DNA of 44,684 nucleotides from NCBI GenBank assembly GCA_029777945.1, contig JAKORG010000033.1:1-44684 (forward strand). The letters run 5' to 3'. The notes under the pieces are model-generated. The model did not search any database and was not told the DNA's origin. It worked only from the letters and a program-made list of their open reading frames with translations. This document shows, piece by piece, positions 12,963 to 23,105 of this stretch. Source of the DNA: Deltaproteobacteria bacterium. GTDB taxonomy: Bacteria > Desulfobacterota > Syntrophorhabdia > Syntrophorhabdales > Syntrophorhabdaceae. The stretch's first letter is position 1. Each line of letters opens with the position of its first letter. A program made the translations under genes and the position numbers.

Positions 12963-14012
12963 TTACTCTACCAGTATCATACCCTTTGGCTCTTCTACAA
13001 AACTACCTATAACCCAAAAATCCATATGTTTTTCATATGCCTTTTTTTTAAACAGATGCACCTCGTCCTCTTGTAAGGCAATGAGTAATCCGCCTGACGA
13101 TTGGGGATCGAATATTATGTCAAAGATTGGGCCGTTAATGCTTGACCTTACATACGGTATATAAAAATCCCTGTTTCTATAAAAACCACTCGGGAAAAAA
13201 CCCGAGGATGCTAAATCTATAACTTCATGAAAATGTGGTATTTTATTGGCATATAGGATAATTCCAAGATTTTCCTTTATCATTTCTTTTATGTGACCGG
13301 CTAAGCCGAAGCCTGTAACATCTGTTGCAGCATGGGTTTTAACTGAAACCATTATTTCTGATGCGCAGCTATTAAGGGTTGCCATCGTCTTTATTAGATG
13401 CCCTTCACTTGATTTTGAAATTATGCCTGCCTTAATGCCATTTATCATAATGCCGGTTCCTATGGGCTTGGTAATTATAAGGACATCGCCTGACCTTGCA
13501 CCTTCATTTCTAATAATCTTATCTACACGGACAAGTCCTGTTACAGAGAGCCCATATTTAATCTCCTCATCCTCTACACTGTGTCCGCCTAATAGATTTG
13601 TTTTAGATTCTTTTAATTTGTCTATGCCTCCCCTTAATATCTCCCGCAATATTTGGGTGCCAAACTTCTTAACAGAAAAACAGACGATATTCAGCGCTGT
13701 TAAAGGTCTGGCACCCATGGCATATATATCACTTAAGGCATTTGCAGCAGCTATTTGACCGAACCAGTAAGGATCATTTACAACGGGTGTGAAAAAATCA
13801 ACAGTCTGAACAAGTGCAAGGTTCTCATTTATTTTATAAATGCCTGCATCTTCAAAGCCCTTAATTCCACAGATGACATTCTCATCTTCTGGAATCTCTA
13901 AACCACAGAGCACATCTGAGAGGTCACCGGGACCGATCTTGGCAGCGCATCCGCCAAAACGTGTATGGTTTGTCATTTTTATGTCATCATCTCCCGTTTT
14001 CTCAAATATCAT
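12963..14012 (-). CDS. selD: Selenide, water dikinase (selenophosphate synthetase)
   Basis: The 349-residue protein makes selenophosphate from selenide and ATP, the selenium donor for selenocysteine and selenouridine tRNA. The N-terminal catalytic motif is GGCAAKIGPGDL with Cys22 and Lys25; many anaerobes carry Sec at that Cys, here it is an ordinary TGC. Further family motifs are VQTVDFFTPVVNDPYWFGQIAAANALSD, GGHSVEDEEIKYGL, ATDVTGFGLAGH and DPQSSGGLL. The length is normal. A GGAAAGGG site supports the start. The gene lies 24 bp after the HdrA-like gene, probably in its transcript. Its presence supports real selenocysteine use, relevant to the two UGA-containing HesB-like genes in this window. 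Confidence 0.95.
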   Translation of the reverse strand: MIFEKTGDDDIKMTNHTRFGGCAAKIGPGDLSDVLCGLEIPEDENVICGIKGFEDAGIYKINENLALVQTVDFFTPVVNDPYWFGQIAAANALSDIYAMGARPLTALNIVCFSVKKFGTQILREILRGGIDKLKESKTNLLGGHSVEDEEIKYGLSVTGLVRVDKIIRNEGARSGDVLIITKPIGTGIMINGIKAGIISKSSEGHLIKTMATLNSCASEIMVSVKTHAATDVTGFGLAGHIKEMIKENLGIILYANKIPHFHEVIDLASSGFFPSGFYRNRDFYIPYVRSSINGPIFDIIFDPQSSGGLLIALQEDEVHLFKKKAYEKHMDFWVIGSFVEEPKGMILVE

Positions 14013-14036: not shown

Positions 14037-17000
14037 TTATGTCTTTTCAACCTTCCTCACTATCACCCTTTTTTCTTCAGATACTGGAGGTGGCACTGGT
14101 GCACCAACAATCTTTGTTACCGCACCAAATTTAGGAGGACAGACTTCAAGACATGTTCCACATTTTATACACTTTTCCTGGTCGATTATATGGACCATAT
14201 TCTTTTTGCTGTCTATGGCATCGACGGGACATCTTCTTGCACAGGTCATACACGCTTGACACTTCGAAGGATCAATATAGTAGGATGGGACATCACTGAA
14301 TAAGGCCTCAATCTCATCTTTTGTAAAGAGCTTATAGTGATCTTCCTGCTCAAGCAGGCGTGCACGCAGTTTTTCCCGCTTTGCTATCTTTATATAGGGA
14401 ATGAGTTTTATCACCTTTTCAAGCCTTTGCTTAAATTCCATCCTGTCTATGCCCTCAGCCACACCTACAGGACCTAACCTTTTAATCTTTTCTGAGAAGT
14501 CCGTCATAATCTCTGCAAAGCGTGTACCTTCGGCAGCAGAAACCCATTCTATCCTCAACCTTTCGGGATTTATACCAATATGCTCTAATATCATTTTACT
14601 TAAAATTGTCATGTTCAGTGCATCGTAATTGCCCTGGGGGACATAATGGCAGTCTGCCGGTAGATGGCATCCACCTATAAAGACACTGTCCATTCCAGCC
14701 AAAAACGCCTCAAATACATGGAGCATATCTACTCTACCTGAACACATAACCCTGACAAGCCTTATGTGGGGTGGATACTGATAGCGGGATACACCTGCCA
14801 GGTCAGCCCCTCCATAGCAACACCAGTTACAGACAAAACCTATCATCTTAGGTTTAAACTGGGTGGTTAGCTCTATTTTACTTGTTATATCTCCATCTCT
14901 ATTTGCTACCCTCACCTCACTCAATATCTGTTTATCTGTAAAGTGTTTTAACTGAATAGCCTGGGATGGACATTTTGAGTTGCACAGGCCACAACCCTTA
15001 CACAATACAGATGTAACCCTTGCCTTTTTTCCCTGTTTTGTGTCGTAGAGTTCGATTGCACCATAGGTGCATGCCTCACTGCATGCGCCGCATCCCATAC
15101 ATCTCTTCTCATCCACTACACATACAGAACCCGATGCAATGACCGTATCATGGGAGAGAAGGGTGAGCGCCCTCCCTGCAGCGCCGTATGCCTGATTAAT
15201 GGACTCCTGGATATGTTTTGGATAGTGGGCAGTGCCACAGAGGAATACACCGTCTGCTCCAAAATCAACAGGTCTTAATTTAACATGGGCCTCCTGGAAA
15301 AACCCATCAGGGTTTAGCGTTACCTTAAATAATTCTGATATCCTTTTGGTGTCCATTGACGGTATAACTGCAGCTGCAAGAGAGACAAAATCAGCATTGA
15401 TCTCAAGTCTCTTACCCAAGACAGAATCAAAAACAGTAACCTTGAGCATCTCTTTTCCGTCCTCTTTTAGAGGCACGATTTGTGGTTTGTTGTCTATATC
15501 GTATCTTATAAATCTTATCTCTTTATTCTGTGCCTCATGGTAGTAATCCTCCCTGAACCCATAAGGCCTCATATCCCTGAAAAGTATGTAAATGTCCATC
15601 GATGGGTTTAATTCTTTGAGCTTTAAGGCATTCTTCAGGGATTCGCTGCAGCATATCCTCGAACAGTAGTTACGCTCACTTGTCCTTGAGCCCACACACT
15701 GGATCATGACAATAGCTTCGGCATTGAGTATCCCCTCATCTGCCTTGGCAATCCGCTCCTCAAGCTCAAGATTTGTCATAACGTGGTCGTTTTGACCATA
15801 GAGGTATTCATCAGGCCTATACTCCTGTGCACCGATGGCAATAACTGCTGCCCCGTGTTTTATAAGTATGATACCCTTATTTGACTCTACAGTAGTTTCA
15901 AAATTTCCTACATAGCCGGCTACACTTTTAATTGTGGCGCCCGTGTACACATGTATCAGTTGATGGTTATATATCTTTTTTATAAGGTCTTTAAGATAGG
16001 ACTGGACATCTAAGCCCTCGATGGTATAGTAGAGGTGTCTCGCCATACCACCTAATTCATTTTCTTTTTCTATAAGATATACCTCATGGCCCTGCTCGGC
16101 TATACTCAATGCGCAGTTCATACCAGCTATACCTCCGCCTACAACCACTGCCCTTTTATCCACCGGAAGTTCAAATTCCTGTAATGGTTCTAAGTGTATT
16201 GCCCTTGCCAGGGACATCCTTAAAAGGTCTTTTGCCTTCTCTGTAGCCTCTTCTTTTTCCCGTGAGTGAACCCACGAGCAATGCTCCCTTATATTGGAAA
16301 ACTCAAAGAAATATTGATTGATACCTCCTACCATCAGGGTATCCCTGAATAGTGGTTCATGGGTTCTGGGCGTGCATGCAGCCACAATCACCCTGTTCAA
16401 ACCTTTTTGCTCTATTATATCGGTTATCTGTTTATTGGAATCGCTGGAACAAGAAAATAGCTGTTCCTCTGCATGGACAACATTCGGCAGGCTCAAGGCA
16501 TATTCTACTACCGACGGAACATCTACAATCCTACCGATATTTGCCCCGCAATGGCATACAAATACACCCACCCTTGGTTCCTCACCGGATACGTCCCTTT
16601 CTGGTGGATAGACCCTCTCTGTTGTGAGATTTCCACGCCTGTAGCTTAAAAGTTCACCACATTTGGAGCCTGCCCCACTTGCTGTGAATACTGATTCGGG
16701 GATATCTATTGGCCCCTGGAATGCACCGCTTACAAATACACCAGGTCGGTTTGTTTCAATGGGACTGAATGGACTGCCAAGAGAGAATCCATGTCGATTT
16801 AACTCTATACCAAACTTCTCTGCCAGGGCCTTTCCATCAGAGGGTGGATTAAGACCTATTGAGAGAACCACCATATCAAACTCCTCCTCTTTTACTCCAC
16901 CATCAAATGTGGAGTATCGAATAATGACATTTTTTGTTTCAGGAACCTCTCTTACAACTGTTACATAACTCCTTATGAATCTGATACCTGGAAGATTCTT

Positions 17001-17969
17001 TGCCCGCTCATAGAATCTCTCAAAGTCTTTTCCCCATGACCTTATGTCATTATGGAATATGACACACTGGGCATTGGGATCATGGTCTTTTGTCAGGATG
17101 ACCTGTTTCTGGGTGTATGTGCAGCATACAGAAGAACAGTAGCTATTGGCCCCAGGGAGGACCTGCCTTGAACCTACACATTGAATCCATACTATCTTAT
17201 GGGGATGTTTTAGATCCGATGCTCGGAGTATTTCACCCTCATATGGACCTGTGGCACACAGAAGCCTTTCGTAGTCGAGACTGCTCACTATATTTGTCAT
17301 TGTGCCATATCCGTATTCTTTAAGTGCTTTCGGGTCAAAAGGTGCAAAGCCAGGGGAAAGTATGACTGCACCCACTTTAACATGTATGGTTTCAGGGAGT
17401 TGAGAAAAATCAATGGCGTCATTCTTACATACCGCCTTACATATCTGACATTTACCTTCTTTGAGGTAAAGGCAGCTTTCATCGATATATGTGACAAGGG
17501 GGATTGCCTGGGCGAAATATATATGGATTGCCTTATTTTTTGATATCTCTTGGTTGAATTTGTCGGGATATGTGACAGGACAATACTCCACGCAGGTCGT
17601 GCAGCCGGTGCATTTACCTTCAATTACATACCTTGGTTTTTTTATGAGACTGACCGTAAAATTTCCTGCCTCACCTTTAACACTATCAACCTCTGTGTAG
17701 GAGAGGATTTCTATATTGGGGTGTCTATAACATTCAACAAACTTAGGTGACTCAATGCACATGGAACAATCATTTGTTGGAAAGGTCTTATCGAGCATAG
17801 CCATATGACCGCCTATTGTAGGCGATTTCTCAACAAGGAATACCTTAAATCCAGCCGTTGCCAGATCAAGGGCAGCCTGGATACCGCTTATCCCACCGCC
17901 CACTATCATGATGTCTCCGTAATAAACCCTGTTGGTCAGTGTTTTTGTTATTTTTTGATCCTTTGACAT
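14037..17969 (-). CDS. hdrA: Double HdrA-like flavin/Fe-S protein fused to MvhD-like domain
   Basis: This 1310-residue cytoplasmic electron-transfer protein is about twice the size of methanogen HdrA. Part 1 (about 1-480) has a flavin site (IVGGGISG), the HdrA motif CSMCIESPK and an inserted ferredoxin (CTGCTTCVEYCP). Part 2 starts near 606 with VVVGGGIAGMNC and repeats the HdrA core (CVGSR, then CCSESLKNA) and a CMGCGACSEAC/CKGCGLCNSKCP ferredoxin. An MvhD-like domain follows (FVCNWCCYGGAD, VMCSGRVD, GCHLPADCHY). The C-terminus holds two more clusters (CQACMTCARRCP and CIKCGTCLEVCPP). Such proteins take part in flavin-based electron bifurcation or confurcation; no hydrogenase, HdrB or HdrC gene is adjacent. 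The ATG at 17969 sits 5 nt from a perfect AGGAGG. The partner is unknown. Confidence 0.88.
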   Translation of the reverse strand: MSKDQKITKTLTNRVYYGDIMIVGGGISGIQAALDLATAGFKVFLVEKSPTIGGHMAMLDKTFPTNDCSMCIESPKFVECYRHPNIEILSYTEVDSVKGEAGNFTVSLIKKPRYVIEGKCTGCTTCVEYCPVTYPDKFNQEISKNKAIHIYFAQAIPLVTYIDESCLYLKEGKCQICKAVCKNDAIDFSQLPETIHVKVGAVILSPGFAPFDPKALKEYGYGTMTNIVSSLDYERLLCATGPYEGEILRASDLKHPHKIVWIQCVGSRQVLPGANSYCSSVCCTYTQKQVILTKDHDPNAQCVIFHNDIRSWGKDFERFYERAKNLPGIRFIRSYVTVVREVPETKNVIIRYSTFDGGVKEEEFDMVVLSIGLNPPSDGKALAEKFGIELNRHGFSLGSPFSPIETNRPGVFVSGAFQGPIDIPESVFTASGAGSKCGELLSYRRGNLTTERVYPPERDVSGEEPRVGVFVCHCGANIGRIVDVPSVVEYALSLPNVVHAEEQLFSCSSDSNKQITDIIEQKGLNRVIVAACTPRTHEPLFRDTLMVGGINQYFFEFSNIREHCSWVHSREKEEATEKAKDLLRMSLARAIHLEPLQEFELPVDKRAVVVGGGIAGMNCALSIAEQGHEVYLIEKENELGGMARHLYYTIEGLDVQSYLKDLIKKIYNHQLIHVYTGATIKSVAGYVGNFETTVESNKGIILIKHGAAVIAIGAQEYRPDEYLYGQNDHVMTNLELEERIAKADEGILNAEAIVMIQCVGSRTSERNYCSRICCSESLKNALKLKELNPSMDIYILFRDMRPYGFREDYYHEAQNKEIRFIRYDIDNKPQIVPLKEDGKEMLKVTVFDSVLGKRLEINADFVSLAAAVIPSMDTKRISELFKVTLNPDGFFQEAHVKLRPVDFGADGVFLCGTAHYPKHIQESINQAYGAAGRALTLLSHDTVIASGSVCVVDEKRCMGCGACSEACTYGAIELYDTKQGKKARVTSVLCKGCGLCNSKCPSQAIQLKHFTDKQILSEVRVANRDGDITSKIELTTQFKPKMIGFVCNWCCYGGADLAGVSRYQYPPHIRLVRVMCSGRVDMLHVFEAFLAGMDSVFIGGCHLPADCHYVPQGNYDALNMTILSKMILEHIGINPERLRIEWVSAAEGTRFAEIMTDFSEKIKRLGPVGVAEGIDRMEFKQRLEKVIKLIPYIKIAKREKLRARLLEQEDHYKLFTKDEIEALFSDVPSYYIDPSKCQACMTCARRCPVDAIDSKKNMVHIIDQEKCIKCGTCLEVCPPKFGAVTKIVGAPVPPPVSEEKRVIVRKVEKT

Positions 17970-18062
17970 GAAAACCTCCTGTATTATAAAGAATCCGGCC
18001 ACGCCTTCTCGACCGGACTCTAAAAGGAGGTTTTGAGTCTTACGGTGGAGAGAGGGCGGGCA
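17970..18062 (-). promoter_or_regulatory. Candidate SD-sequestering leader RNA upstream of hdrA-like gene
   Basis: Read on the minus strand, the leader has CCCGCCC, 19 nt, AAAACCTCCT (18034-18025), 44 nt, then AGGAGGTTTT (17980-17971) and ATG. The two 10-mers are perfectly complementary, so the Shine-Dalgarno sequence can be fully paired. Between them is a GC-rich hairpin (18019-18011 with 18000-17992, about 9 bp including G-U pairs). The leader at 20396 has the same plan with the same 44-nt distance. A GGCG in the inner loop could pair with the upstream CGCC as a pseudoknot. I recognise no established riboswitch class. Confidence 0.6.
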
Positions 18063-18364
18063 CAGTTATAAAGGGAGACAAAACTGGCTCCCGTTTAATA
18101 TTTCAAACTATAAAAAATAAAATCCTTTTCACTTTTCCACCTTAGTCATCATTGTTAAAGTTATTCAAAATTCTGTTAAATACATGCTGTAAAAAAAGGG
18201 CAAAAACATATTTTTGCCTCCGCTAATTCTTCTTTGTATACTGCCAGAGATTTCTCATCTTTATTTAAAACACTTACGCAACATCCCATATGTTTACCCA
18301 AGATTTTACGGCTTTCAACTACATAGGGTTCATCTACAAAAAACTCACCTCATCTTGTGATTCC
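18063..18364. other. Spacer between the two redox transcription units
   Basis: It contains the terminator at 18190-18218. On the minus strand between the activator ATPase stop and the terminator, one frame stays open for about 56 codons and is cysteine-rich (GKHMGCCVSVL, AKICFCPFF). It lacks a start codon and ribosome site, so it is more likely debris than a gene. Confidence 0.4.
18190..18218 (-). terminator. Rho-independent terminator of the double-cubane operon
   Basis: On the minus strand GGCAAAAA, a 4-nt loop and TTTTTGCC form an 8-bp stem followed by CTTTTTTT. It lies about 150 bp beyond the activator ATPase stop and before the hdrA leader, separating the two transcription units. Confidence 0.7.
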
Positions 18365-19117
18365 TTATCTTTTGTTTTGACCATACAACGCCGCACCGTA
18401 TGCACCAATTATCTGCGGATCAGGTGGAACGAATACTGGCCTTTTTAGCTCCTCAGAAATCAATTTCCGTGCACATTCATTTAGTGCTACCCCTCCTGCA
18501 AATACAACATCACCTGAAGGGGCCACTCTATTCAGTAATCTCAGAGTCCTGGACACTATTGCCCTATGAATGCCAAGGGCTACTTCTTCTCTTTTGGCGC
18601 CACGGGAAATGAGGGAAATAACCTCTGATTCTGCAAATACAGTGCACATGTTGTTTATCGTTTGAGCTTTTGTGGCCGTGCAGGCTGCTTTTGAAAATTC
18701 ATCAATATTGCTGTAATTCAAGGCATGTGCCATAATTTCGAGAAACCTGCCAGTTCCTGCTGCGCATTTGTCGTTCATCTCGAATTTAACGATTTTCCCT
18801 TTCTCGTTTATGTGGATTGCCTTTGTATCCTGACCCCCTATATCAAGAACTGCCCTGCATGATGGATATACAGCCCTTGACCCTAAAGCAAATGCTTTGA
18901 TTTCACTTATGATTGTGCAGGAAAAAACTTCATTTATGAGATGGCGTCCATAACCTGTTGCTACCATATAATCGTATGAGGCACCGTCTAAGAGAGTAAA
19001 CACTGTATTTAGCGGGTCATGAGAGTTCAATACCTTTTTGGCAAGTAGTATTTTACTACCATCCATGACTACAAGCTTGACTGTTCTTGAGCCTATATCA
19101 AGCCCTGCTATTTTCAT
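18365..19117 (-). CDS. Activator ATPase of double-cubane reductase (CoA-dehydratase activase family)
   Basis: This 250-residue ASKHA-fold ATPase belongs to the HgdC/BcrA-type activase family. It has the phosphate-1 motif GLDIGSRTVKL, adenosine-site DIGGQDTKAI and a late FAGGVALNE. The two cysteines that hold a [4Fe-4S] cluster between subunits of the dimer are C118 (NDKCAAGTG) and C158 (NNMCTVFAESE). ATP hydrolysis drives one electron at very low potential onto the partner enzyme. Its start directly abuts the stop of the upstream reductase (TAGATG, zero spacing), the usual arrangement of DCCP with its reductase DCCP-R. A terminator follows. Confidence 0.92.
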   Translation of the reverse strand: MKIAGLDIGSRTVKLVVMDGSKILLAKKVLNSHDPLNTVFTLLDGASYDYMVATGYGRHLINEVFSCTIISEIKAFALGSRAVYPSCRAVLDIGGQDTKAIHINEKGKIVKFEMNDKCAAGTGRFLEIMAHALNYSNIDEFSKAACTATKAQTINNMCTVFAESEVISLISRGAKREEVALGIHRAIVSRTLRLLNRVAPSGDVVFAGGVALNECARKLISEELKRPVFVPPDPQIIGAYGAALYGQNKR

Positions 19118-20395
19118 CTATCCCTTTATCCTCTCGATAAATGCCTCAACACGTGTCTTTAGTTGCCCTATATCTTCCTGACTGTAGTCTGTTTCAAGAC
19201 GAAGGGTAGGGATATTACTATTTTTAAGGTCAGTCTCAAAATGGCCGCTTTCTATAATATAGGGCTGACAAAACTGTAGATTATAATGAATTAAACCTTT
19301 TGCATTATATCTTTCAAACATCTCCTTTATATGCTCTAAGCGTGAATGGTTGGGGGTAAAAATGGCGCAATCAATTTTAAAGTATCGGTCAGTTATATTT
19401 TCTACGAGGTCTTCAACAGTGGAACCTTTTGTCTCTGTCAGCCATCTGGTCCCCCGCTCACCGACACATGATTCTTCTCCCACAATGGCAGCACCACTTG
19501 TCTCCACAATATAAGGCACCTTCCAGTTGGGAACAGCCATAGGACAACCTGAGACAATAACCCGCACTGTCCCTTCAGGAAATACACCTTCACCTCTTTT
19601 TATACGTTCTACAAGCTCATCGCACAAGGCATTGACAGAATTTGTAAATCGAACGGGGTCATCGTAGAAAAAGACCTGATTGATAAGAAGGCTATCAAGA
19701 CCCGATATAGGTATGGGGTTTGACTTTCTGAGCTCTGCAAGTCTTAAGACTGCCTTTCTTTTAGCATTGACAATATCAATGCCTTTTCTGAGGTTTTCAT
19801 AAGTTATCTTTTTACCGCTTATTTCTTCGAGTTTTGCAATAAACTTTAGATATTCTTCCTTAAGGAGCATTTTGCCTGCATTACTCTTTGTTTGAGGCAA
19901 ATCTACAACATATAAATCTTTAACATAAGGGGATAGAACCTCATAGGCCTTTTTTTTGCCATCGCAGGTATTTTCACCTACCACAAGGTCACATGCCTCT
20001 ATATATGGACAGACACGACCGAGTTTGAATCCAAAGGCAGATTTTATAAGGGCACAAAGATTTCTGGGTAGAATCTGTTCGGCACCCTCGAAGTTAAACT
20101 CAGCACCGGCGCATAGCCCTACAGAGATACCGTCTACGGCAATGATGAGCTCTTCAGGGACGAATACACAATATAATCCAATAACTTTTTTTCCCTGGGT
20201 TTTTGCATCCATAAGCTCTTTTATCCTCAAGCCATGCACCTCGCTCATTACAAAGTCAAAGTATTTCATCCCCTCAGGACGATTCTTTTGGGTCATGAAG
20301 ATATTATGATAACTATCACCGAGAACGGAAAGAAGAGCATCGTGGGCCTCAAGGTCAAGGCCCAGTTCTGACCACATTTGATTGTAACCTGACAT
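19118..20395 (-). CDS. Double-cubane-cluster-containing anaerobic reductase (HgdB/BcrC-related)
   Basis: The 425-residue protein is a member of the 2-hydroxyacyl-CoA dehydratase superfamily. Its N-terminus (LEAHDALLSVLG, then QKNRPEGMKYFDFVMSE) and cysteines (RNLCALIKSAFG, CPYIEACDLVVGENTCDGKKK, VSGCPMAVPNWK, EESCVGERGTRW, LQFCQPY) match the single-subunit double-cubane proteins rather than two-subunit dehydratases. The known member from Carboxydothermus carries an [8Fe-9S] double cubane and reduces small molecules such as acetylene and hydrazine with its ATP-driven activator; the physiological substrate is unknown. The partner activator follows immediately. The start has AAGGAGG 5 nt upstream, inside a structured leader like that of the HdrA gene. 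Confidence 0.88.
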   Translation of the reverse strand: MSGYNQMWSELGLDLEAHDALLSVLGDSYHNIFMTQKNRPEGMKYFDFVMSEVHGLRIKELMDAKTQGKKVIGLYCVFVPEELIIAVDGISVGLCAGAEFNFEGAEQILPRNLCALIKSAFGFKLGRVCPYIEACDLVVGENTCDGKKKAYEVLSPYVKDLYVVDLPQTKSNAGKMLLKEEYLKFIAKLEEISGKKITYENLRKGIDIVNAKRKAVLRLAELRKSNPIPISGLDSLLINQVFFYDDPVRFTNSVNALCDELVERIKRGEGVFPEGTVRVIVSGCPMAVPNWKVPYIVETSGAAIVGEESCVGERGTRWLTETKGSTVEDLVENITDRYFKIDCAIFTPNHSRLEHIKEMFERYNAKGLIHYNLQFCQPYIIESGHFETDLKNSNIPTLRLETDYSQEDIGQLKTRVEAFIERIKG

Positions 20396-20487
20396 AGGAA
20401 CCTCCTTAAAAATAAAATAAAAAACCGGTCGCAGTCTCCCGCGCCCGGCTCAAGGAGGTTATATAGTGCGTCCCTTAAGGCGGGGAA
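20396..20487 (-). promoter_or_regulatory. Candidate SD-sequestering leader RNA upstream of double-cubane gene
   Basis: Minus-strand order: CCCCGCC (20485-20479), 18 nt, AACCTCCTT (20460-20452), 44 nt, AAGGAGGTT (20407-20399), 5-nt spacing, ATG. The two 9-mers are perfectly complementary. The interior forms a different GC hairpin (CCGG at 20448-20445 with CCGG at 20428-20425, plus CGC/GCG), so primary sequence differs while architecture matches the hdrA leader. Spacing identity argues for a shared regulator or ligand. Confidence 0.6.
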
Positions 20488-20741
20488 ACTGCATGATTTA
20501 TTGCCGTAATGGACCAACCTGGCCCTTCAAAGGCATTTCATATTAAAAAGATTAGATTTTCCATTAGCCCTCTTATCATTTTAACTCGTGAAATAATTAA
20601 CAAATTAAATTTCTGAAAGTCAAGCATATTTTGAGACCTCTTCAAAGGCCAAGCCTTTCGCGCTTAACCAGGCTTCCCAGCGGACTTTCCAGAAGTTCCT
20701 GCAATTATTGGAAAGACCGAGCATGCTTGGGGTCCAATCTT
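20488..20741. other. Spacer upstream of the double-cubane operon
   Basis: It is AT-rich and must hold the operon promoter; a TTGACT box occurs on the minus strand at 20624-20619, but no strong -10 element stands out. Positions 20650-20735 are GC-richer (cgcgcttaaccaggcttccc) and look like foreign or repeat debris joined to the truncated sensor gene. Confidence 0.35.
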
Positions 20742-21652: not shown

Positions 21653-22657
21653 TCAACTTCCTTGCAGTTCCTGAAGCTCTACTTCCTCAGGATATCCATA
21701 TACCTCAATGCCAGATGATTCGGCAAATTCCTTTGCAGTGCCTTCAATCATGGGAGAGATCAATAGTTTTCGCCTTACAGGTCTTCCTTCTCTTCTTGTA
21801 AAAAATTCTACCTTCCTTATAAAGGTAGCCACATCACCCTTGCTTATGGATGACTTAATCTCAGCCACCATTACCTCTCCATCCTTCACTATTAGATCAA
21901 GTTCTACTTGATCTGGCCTTCCAAAAACATAACCCTCCTCATCCTTTGCCATGTACCTCTCTACCTTTAAAGGAAAGCTTTCCTCCAAGATCCCCTTCAT
22001 GGCACTTCTGAAAGAACCCTCAGCCCTCAAACCCCACCTGGCACCAAGGGCACCAATGGATATATCATGCCTCCTGTGAAGAAGTTTTATTTCTTCAAGG
22101 ATTTGATTGATTACCTTCTGGTTTTCTTCCCACTTCTTATTCCATTCCATCTCCATCCGCTCGAGCCTTTTCTGGTTCTCTTCCCACTTCTTATTCCATT
22201 CTGCATCCCTTTGCTCGAGCCTTTTCTGGTTCTCTTCCCACTTCTTATTCCATTCTGCATCCCTTTGCTCGAGCCTTTTCTGGTTCTCCTCCCACTTCTT
22301 ATTCCATTCCATCTCCATCCGCTCGAGCCTTTTCTGGTTCTCCTCCCACTTCTTATTCCATTCCATCTCCATCCGCTCGAGCCTTTTCTGGTTCTCCTCC
22401 CACTTCTTATTCCATTCTGCCGTCATCTGATCAAATCTTTTTAAACTTTCCTGCCATCTTTTCTCACTCTCTTCTCTTAAAACCTTTATCTCCTTCAGGA
22501 GGGCCTCAAACCTGTCTTCGGTCCTCTTTTTTTCAGCAAACCTTTCCTGGACAAGCTGAATGATAAACTGCCTTGTCAGGGTATCCTTCTTTATGAGTTT
22601 TGGTAATTCCCTGAGAATAATTTCTTTAATCTCGTTCTCTGATAGACCTTTCTGCAT
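21653..22657 (-). CDS. Coiled-coil protein with C-terminal PD-(D/E)XK-like domain (DUF3782 type)
   Basis: The protein has about 334 residues. A short helical N-terminus (SENEIKEIILRELPKLIKKD) leads to a long charged coiled coil built from nearly six copies of an 18-residue unit (EWNKKWEENQKRLERMEM and the variant ending EQRDA). A restriction-nuclease-like C-terminal domain follows: DQVELDLIVKDGEVMVAEIKSS (Asp and ExK motif) with LLISP further on. Such proteins occur in many copies in thermophiles and anaerobes; function is unknown, although the ExK core suggests nucleic-acid binding or cleavage. The start at 22657 is preferred because homologues begin near SENEI; the frame extends to an ATG at 22729. 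It stands alone between repeat arrays. Confidence 0.75.
   Translation of the reverse strand: MQKGLSENEIKEIILRELPKLIKKDTLTRQFIIQLVQERFAEKKRTEDRFEALLKEIKVLREESEKRWQESLKRFDQMTAEWNKKWEENQKRLERMEMEWNKKWEENQKRLERMEMEWNKKWEENQKRLEQRDAEWNKKWEENQKRLEQRDAEWNKKWEENQKRLERMEMEWNKKWEENQKVINQILEEIKLLHRRHDISIGALGARWGLRAEGSFRSAMKGILEESFPLKVERYMAKDEEGYVFGRPDQVELDLIVKDGEVMVAEIKSSISKGDVATFIRKVEFFTRREGRPVRRKLLISPMIEGTAKEFAESSGIEVYGYPEEVELQELQGS
22116..22421 (-). repeat. 54-bp coding minisatellite (5-6 units)
   Basis: Tandem near-identical 54-bp units inside the coiled coil, of two subtypes: one ends in codons for RMEM, the other for QRDA. Subtypes are ordered as two RMEM, two QRDA, then two RMEM-like units, as expected from unequal crossing-over. 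The unit is a multiple of three, so copy-number change only lengthens the coil. Confidence 0.9.
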
Positions 22658-23105
22658 ACTATATTTTCCCTTATCCATTGGGTGAAAGTCAATATCTTTA
22701 GTTTTCGAAATGTTCCGATAAGGCATCATCTTTATTATTATGTCTGTTTATGACAGAATAACCCATCGGAACTACAAGTAAATACACGATATTATGGGTC
22801 AACATAGTTCACCTAAGTAAAATCAGCGATATCAACCTTGACATTTAACAAATTATGCTGACCTTATCTTTCACATAATGGTTTATCCATATCGGTTTAT
22901 TAATATGTACAGTTTGCGTATATTTAAACCAAAGGTAGATTTAAAAGTATTTATCCATAACAGTAAAGGGGATTTGGAAAATGGCTGTCTGGAGCTGGCG
23001 TATAAACAATATATTTAATAATTTGACTATTTCTTTTGACATGCTTTTTTTCTCTGATAAAAATACTGCCATTATAGCCCAAACAGATATAAAACTAAAA
23101 GGACA
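22658..23105. other. Spacer with dispersed repeat copy B
   Basis: It contains the 165-bp repeat (22817-22980). No gene is visible in the remainder. AT-rich sequence at about 22990-23105 runs into the decayed glycosyltransferase. Confidence 0.5.
22817..22980 (+). repeat. Dispersed repeat, copy B
   Basis: It aligns with the reverse complement of 36858-37022 over about 165 bp. Long identical blocks include ttgacatttaacaaatta, tatctttcacataatgg and tttatccataacagtaaa. It starts with gtaaaatcag and CAACCTTGAC, one base short of the terminal repeat in copy C, and its right end has diverged. Confidence 0.8.

Follow-up and report, generated by a model that had tools for sequence, protein, structure and literature searches.

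Leader peptides precede the trp, his and leu operons of enterobacteria. In each, a short open reading frame (ORF) carries the sensing codon, alternative pairings form near its end, and a hairpin that acts as a terminator or covers the Shine-Dalgarno (SD) sequence lies behind it. In E. coli, the 5' region of the selenium genes selAB holds an element resembling a selenocysteine insertion sequence (SECIS), which, as Thanbichler and Boeck reportedly found in 2002, binds SelB without coding for selenocysteine (Sec). In the archaeon Methanococcus maripaludis, the HrsM switch keeps cysteine (Cys) isoforms of the HdrA/VhuD type for selenium shortage; both Cys isoforms and genes for transporters go up when selenium is depleted, and the switch is a LysR-type repressor with a sensing step stated to be unknown (PMC11097638). 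Here we describe two leaders on the minus strand of a 44,684-nucleotide contig (JAKORG010000033.1 of assembly GCA_029777945.1), which was analyzed at full length and is called the window. The contig is from a Deltaproteobacteria bacterium of the family Syntrophorhabdaceae. The leaders stand upstream of genes for a double-cubane-cluster anaerobic reductase (DCCP) and an HdrA2-FlpD fusion, and each contains a short ORF interrupted by UGA, the proposed Sec codon, with a SECIS-like hairpin behind it.

These leaders share the general layout of the trp, his and leu leaders, but the sensing codon would be a UGA recoded through a SECIS inside the leader ORF, and failure to decode it would lead to termination, not stalling. 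Like selAB, they have a SECIS-type hairpin in the 5' region of selenium genes; unlike selAB, the hairpin follows an in-frame UGA within an ORF. Their target genes recall the M. maripaludis switch, whereas here the leader RNA itself would do the sensing. The hairpins agree with bacterial SECIS (bSECIS) elements in spacing, loop G, loop size, stem and energy (PMC13188914), but are located in a leader peptide of ~28–37 codons and not in an enzyme gene. We would place the leaders within attenuation and not in a category of their own. No earlier Sec-codon leader peptide or attenuator was found in the open-access literature on selenium with riboswitch, leader peptide or attenuation, which does not prove priority.

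We consider it very likely that these leaders exert control that depends on Sec decoding. Because their 5' half is a UGA-interrupted frame with a SECIS-type hairpin, because they match nothing relevant in Rfam and because their targets are related to selenium, the sensed signal would most likely be whether the cell can decode UGA as Sec, a condition read by the ribosome, and not a ligand bound by the RNA.

The leader frame, its UGA and the SECIS-like hairpin

All results are sequence-based and were obtained from the single window, the organism's own 2.4 Mb genome, 39 genomes of the family, a search of the phylum and 80 DCCP loci from named genomes. The initial annotation had described two leaders with an anti-SD, a GC hairpin, a complementary SD and an ATG, and these were confirmed on the minus strand upstream of hdrA and DCCP. 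The part it described is real, but the UGA-interrupted ORF further 5' was overlooked.

The sequence data support conservation of the leaders and of an open frame on both sides of the UGA. In nearly all copies the leader ORF runs from a start codon through roughly 8–17 codons to the UGA and then for about 20 codons more, with its stop immediately ahead of the anti-SD. The UGA is kept in 41 of 43 copies, and the stretch from UGA to stop is exactly 20 codons in 37 of the 43. The final stop is interchangeable (TAA in 26 copies, TGA in 11 and TAG in 6). The peptide usually ends in SPP directly before the stop, with VSPP conserved, and its N-terminal half is poorly conserved. In an ungapped alignment, the leader frame is open in 27/27 sequences and the other five frames in 5–24. 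Coding-type substitutions in the leader frame gave a z-score of 2.66, a value reached in 0/150 column shuffles, and no other forward frame has a protein-like pattern; one antisense frame gave 1.92. Three copies that were not used in model building (G414, G034 and G004x) likewise have a UGA, exactly 20 codons and a stop.

The bSECIS model places the apical loop 16–37 nt after the UGA, with a loop of 3–9 nt, a G within the first two loop positions and a minimum free energy of at most -7.5 (PMC13188914). In all 30 copies tested, the apical loop lies 17 nt downstream of the in-frame UGA, within the model's spacing, and reads N-G-[G/U]. The 42 nt after the UGA fold with minimum free energies from -9.3 to -19.0 kcal/mol, below -7.5 in 30/30. 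The stem has 7 pairs with one bulge, within the range of 4–16 bp, although the pairing register is shifted in a few sequences. Of the cells in this helix 95.8% are paired, double changes occur in 5/7 pairs, and the covariation was equaled in 0/500 shuffles and also exceeds that of slid controls. A strict scan for a UGA-interrupted ORF with a SECIS was passed by 9/80 DCCP upstream regions, as compared to 0.04 expected, and in a similar test on 1566 UGA triplets of the window the sole pass was the DCCP-leader UGA. The organism's own genome encodes a tRNA-Sec with a UCA anticodon (69.9 bits) and SelB (359 bits). A further helix, P0 (AGGC.GAGAA..GC with GC..UUUCUC.GCCU), would surround the SECIS-like hairpin and seemed convincing on inspection; its covariation was no better than that of shuffles, and it was rejected.

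The P3 hairpin, region 2 and access to the Shine-Dalgarno sequence

The anti-SD:SD pair encloses a hairpin, P3. The arrangement ACCTCCT-N30..60-AGGAGGT occurs in the 2.4 Mb genome at these two leaders only, and CCTCCT-N30..60-AGGAGG was observed twice in the window as compared to 0.06 expected. The two leaders have fold z-scores of -2.5 and -3.5. The 44-nt interior noted in the initial annotation is present in both window leaders, but its exactness is coincidental, as the spacing differs among relatives. CCCGCC, which had been taken as a common element, is not homologous between the two copies: it lies within the final Ser-Pro-Pro codons in the DCCP leader, and encodes Pro-Ala, 12 nt upstream of those codons, in the hdrA leader. 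The complementarity of GGCG and CGCC, also pointed out earlier, belongs to a longer candidate helix. P3 is 96.1% paired, with covariation equaled in 0/500 shuffles. A T-tract ends P3 in many copies, and a scan of the window calls the DCCP leader alone terminator-like.

The last codons of the leader ORF, termed region 2, are complementary to P3. When the alignment was folded without the 3' arm of P3, these codons paired with the P3 5' arm and loop. In the region 2:P3 helix, 94.2% of cells are paired, and a G-C pair is exchanged for A-U in three sequences. For the DCCP leader the duplex gave p = 0.000 against a dinucleotide null and p = 0.010 against a synonymous null; the corresponding values for the hdrA leader are 0.027 and 0.030. 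Among 40 leaders, the duplex scored above dinucleotide shuffles at p<=0.05 in 12 and above synonymous-codon shuffles at the same level in 14. Region 2 scores better with its own P3 arm than with the arms of other leaders (Wilcoxon p = 0.016), and the complementarity is strong in both window leaders and in the divergent leaders L216, L221, G034, G004x and L235.

Features of the two leaders and their transcription units in the window (SD, Shine-Dalgarno)
Feature	Position	Strand	Remarks
DCCP leader ORF, MENLIFLI-UGA-NAFEGPGWSITAINHAVSPP-TAA	20475..20564	-	SD-like AAGAGGG upstream
DCCP-leader in-frame UGA, proposed Sec codon	20538..20540	-	
DCCP-leader SECIS-like hairpin	20508..20527	-	loop AGGTT, 17 nt after UGA
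DCCP-leader region 2, codons for (A)VSPP at the end of the ORF, proposed to act as antiterminator/anti-sequestor strand	20478..20491	-	14-bp complementarity to P3 5' arm
DCCP-leader anti-SD	20453..20460	-	
DCCP-leader P3 hairpin	20419..20451	-	followed by TTTTTT, terminator-like
DCCP SD	20399..20406	-	
DCCP, double-cubane-cluster anaerobic reductase, NF040772	19118..20395	-	ATG 20393-20395
ATP-dependent activase, BcrAD/BadFG family	18365..19117	-	
Terminator-like site separating the DCCP-activase unit from the hdrA leader	18199..18223	-	
hdrA-flpD-selD leader ORF, VKRILFFIV-UGA-NIKREPVLSPFITVPALSPP-TAA	18040..18132	-	GTG start
hdrA-leader in-frame UGA, proposed Sec codon	18103..18105	-	
hdrA-leader SECIS-like hairpin	18073..18092	-	loop AGTTT, 17 nt after UGA
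hdrA-leader region 2, CGCCCUCUCUCCACCG	18043..18058	-	complementary to P3 CGGUCGAGAAGGCG, 13 bp
hdrA-leader anti-SD	18025..18032	-	
hdrA-leader P3 hairpin	17990..18021	-	weak T-tract
hdrA-flpD SD	17973..17980	-	
HdrA2-FlpD fusion, Cys isoform	14037..17969	-	ATG 17967-17969
FlpD Cys codon TGC	14820..14822	-	context CNW-C-CYGGADLAG; aligned to UGA of contig C67 paralog
SelD, Cys isoform	12963..14012	-	Sec-form paralog (1 TGA) on contig C60
Possible DCCP-leader promoter, TTGACT-17-TTAATT	20595..20623	-	by eye; promoter scan did not return the site
hdrA-leader promoter-like TTAACA-17-AACAAT	18151..18179	-	9/12, as scan not above chance

Target genes and distribution of the leaders

Selenium metabolism is the common denominator of the genes behind the leaders. 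These include DCCP1-activase-DCCP2, YedF, a Sec-lyase-like cysteine desulfurase, SelB, HdrA-FlpD-SelD and FdhA, as well as an ArsS-type cluster (TIGR04282, TIGR04283 and TIGR04167), a MauE/rhodanese pair (TsoB-like) and ABC transporters, one of them MetNIQ-like with DUF169. In G023, a tRNA-Sec-like gene comes first behind the leader. The initial annotation had proposed that the leaders switch low-potential electron-transfer units together; such targets are present, but they are one slice only, others including tRNA-Sec/selB, selD, yedF, Sec-lyase-like, ArsS-type, rhodanese and Met-type ABC transporter genes.

The leader-controlled FlpD has no stop, and a 55–65% identical paralog elsewhere in the same genome has exactly one TGA. 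In the organism's own genome this paralog is on contig C67, with the TGA aligned to the Cys of CNWC. SelD follows the same pattern, with the Cys form in the window and a one-TGA form on another contig, and so does FdhA in G032, G021 and G035, where the Cys form is leader-controlled and the paralog has one TGA. Cys-FdhA loci were found to have a leader next to them, whereas no Sec-form locus examined did; for some of the latter the region covered was ~1.5 kb on each side. The exceptions are a SelD in G018 with neither a stop nor a leader match and a distant FdhA homolog in G031 without a stop. That the main genes behind the leaders in the window might themselves encode a selenoprotein was considered and dropped, these being Cys forms with no in-frame UGA.

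Two genomes, G012 and G023, have a second tRNA-Sec-like gene with the anticodon GCA, for cysteine codons (L123:6507-6598, minus strand, and L113:1402-1493, plus strand). It stands with a second selB directly behind the leader and before HdrA-FlpD, and FlpD there has TGT at the Sec position. These genes possibly serve Sec insertion at Cys codons, which is known in other bacteria according to work cited in PMC8124441. The MetNIQ-like transporter with DUF169 (L109:664-4100) is a candidate importer of selenium compounds. In genus g4 (L067, L065 and L068), an ABC transporter with a periplasmic binding protein after the DCCP unit is a candidate selenium-related transporter.

Broad scans of relatives for the anti-SD/SD pattern returned mostly background, yet the first homologs surfaced there. 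The initial annotation had suggested a covariance-model search of relatives and had named a lack of homologous leaders or of covariation as grounds for giving up its proposal. Two such models, R1 and then R2, were built; the search showed homologs preceding hdrA, DCCP and selenium genes, and their helices covary. R1 matched 21/39 family genomes, often twice per genome and with the weakest matches doubtful, and R2 matched 20/39. Beyond the family, a phylum-wide search returned little: a single copy, from a different family (G414, R2), was convincing, the other matches being weak or partial. Among the 80 DCCP loci, the leader is present in three contigs labelled Spirochaetota (L216, L219 and L227), and a match in Cloacimonadales (L235, with 24.8 bits and another UGA close by) is no more than suggestive, as is L270. 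These Spirochaetota and Cloacimonadales copies are on contigs of metagenome-assembled genomes, and binning errors are therefore possible.

Decayed copies of the DCCP1 N-terminus are located just behind leaders outside the DCCP operon in L108, L112, L113, L109 and L111. Such remnants suggest that duplication has spread the leader along with the beginning of DCCP1. G015 has a tandem pair of leaders before hdrA (L115:1323-1756), identical over the 97 bases compared. In an uncultured Desulfobacteraceae contig, a leader fragment (L277:32-151) lies ~2.8 kb from DCCP with unrelated ORFs between, possibly a mobilized copy.

The minus strand of the window carries two transcription units, DCCP-activase and HdrA2-FlpD-selD, with a terminator-like site between them. 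The counterparts of the possible DCCP-leader promoter in relatives have clear TTGACA boxes. Elsewhere in the window, a minus-strand ORF at 21653-22729 consists of many near-identical repeats of ~15 residues (EWNKKWEENQKRLE..) and is coiled-coil-like.

Proposed mechanism, alternatives and meaning

The leaders would act, on balance probably, as Sec-decoding-dependent attenuators that are OFF with selenium and ON without it. The ribosome would begin the leader ORF and encounter the UGA with the SECIS hairpin behind it. With sufficient selenium, SelB and Sec-tRNA would decode the UGA as Sec, and the ribosome would proceed 20 codons to the stop after SPP, covering region 2; the Pro-Pro-stop sequence may slow it there. 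P3 would then fold along with the anti-SD:SD pairing, often with a T-tract, and the genes would be OFF. When Sec-tRNA is scarce, release factor would terminate translation at the UGA, and region 2 would be free to pair with the P3 5' arm and loop. This pairing would free the SD and remove the terminator, turning the genes ON. The output would be Cys isoforms of selenoproteins (HdrA-FlpD and SelD, with FdhA in relatives) together with genes for selenium salvage, insertion and transport. Sec insertion at the UGA, competition between region 2 and P3, the polarity and stalling at SPP-stop are the steps that we infer. This polarity is favored because Cys backups would be wanted when selenium is short and because the layout appears trp-like.

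The same Sec sensor could work with the opposite polarity. In the manner of the translational attenuators at resistance genes, a ribosome that has read through to the stop would loosen the anti-SD, and ample selenium would turn the genes ON. In nearly every copy only ~4–17 nt separate the leader stop from the P2/P3 stem, and plentiful selenium is a sensible cue for selB and tRNA-Sec. However, a ribosome positioned on a stop codon should reach ~10 nt past it and would here often end just short of the stem; the Cys backups FlpD, SelD and FdhA are useful under selenium shortage, and the complementarity of region 2 to P3 fits the trp-like layout. We regard this arrangement as unlikely. Direct repression of the downstream gene by SelB and Sec-tRNA bound to the hairpin, with no leader translation, would work without a conserved UGA in frame, a start codon, an extension of exactly 20 codons and a stop, and is given very little weight, even though the hairpin fits the bSECIS model, selB is among the targets and the E. 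coli selAB leader, for which PMC8124441 lists the reference, is said to provide a precedent.

The initial annotation favored a riboswitch for a metabolite, a metal or redox state, in which the open frame would be incidental. The leaders are indeed structured, sequester the SD and precede several operons per genome, but the coding signal and the interchange of stop codons fall inside the supposed aptamer, and the helices that covary are those of the SECIS-like hairpin and of P3, the enclosing P0 having failed. No known riboswitch had been recognized by eye, and there was no relevant Rfam match at the gathering threshold or at a permissive E-value. A pure riboswitch was dropped because the conserved 5' half is an open frame with a UGA, and ligand binding now appears highly improbable. 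What stands of the original proposal is a shared cis-regulatory RNA that controls SD access, is conserved and covarying, and is linked to selenium. It is most improbable that the ORF encodes a small functional selenoprotein with no regulatory role. A conserved ORF with a UGA and a SECIS and a conserved C-terminal VSPP would suit such a protein, but none of the 43 copies has a Cys codon at the UGA position, so that the Cys homologs by which ordinary selenoprotein families are recognized were not seen. The poorly conserved N-terminal half also argues against it, as does the hairpin, which always follows the ORF and whose 5' arm is often complementary to the last codons.

Several observations weigh against the attenuator that is ON without selenium. 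Its polarity is read from the target genes and from the region 2:P3 helix. This helix covaries only modestly (22/500 shuffles), and several copies (G414, L224, G003a and G004a) have it weakly or not at all. P2 and P3 together are usually the stabler fold, and the ON state must therefore be kinetic. The T-tract is poor in the hdrA leader and absent from G414, and termination is therefore not universal. The hdrA leader of the window fell below the threshold in the strict SECIS stem scan, though its fold reaches it. Among the 43 copies, one has TAA at the UGA position, one has decayed to CGA and one has no stop. SelB was not found in three leader-bearing draft genomes (G020, G004 and G019), and several copies precede decayed DCCP N-termini.

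With these points weighed, we think it likely that this leader family uses Sec as a signal. A UGA with a SECIS in a short leader peptide would report selenium status and switch between selenoprotein-based and cysteine-based energy metabolism. This dedicated attenuator would have moved from operon to operon by duplication and would occur in at least one phylum, possibly in three. If this is true, attenuation would cover a recoded stop codon besides the standard amino acids, and the leader would be a native selenium biosensor. It would also provide a sequence tag for selenium regulons and for candidate selenium transporters, such as the MetNIQ-like system. Such a gauge of Sec codons would directly answer how bacteria sense selenium and choose between Sec and Cys isozymes.

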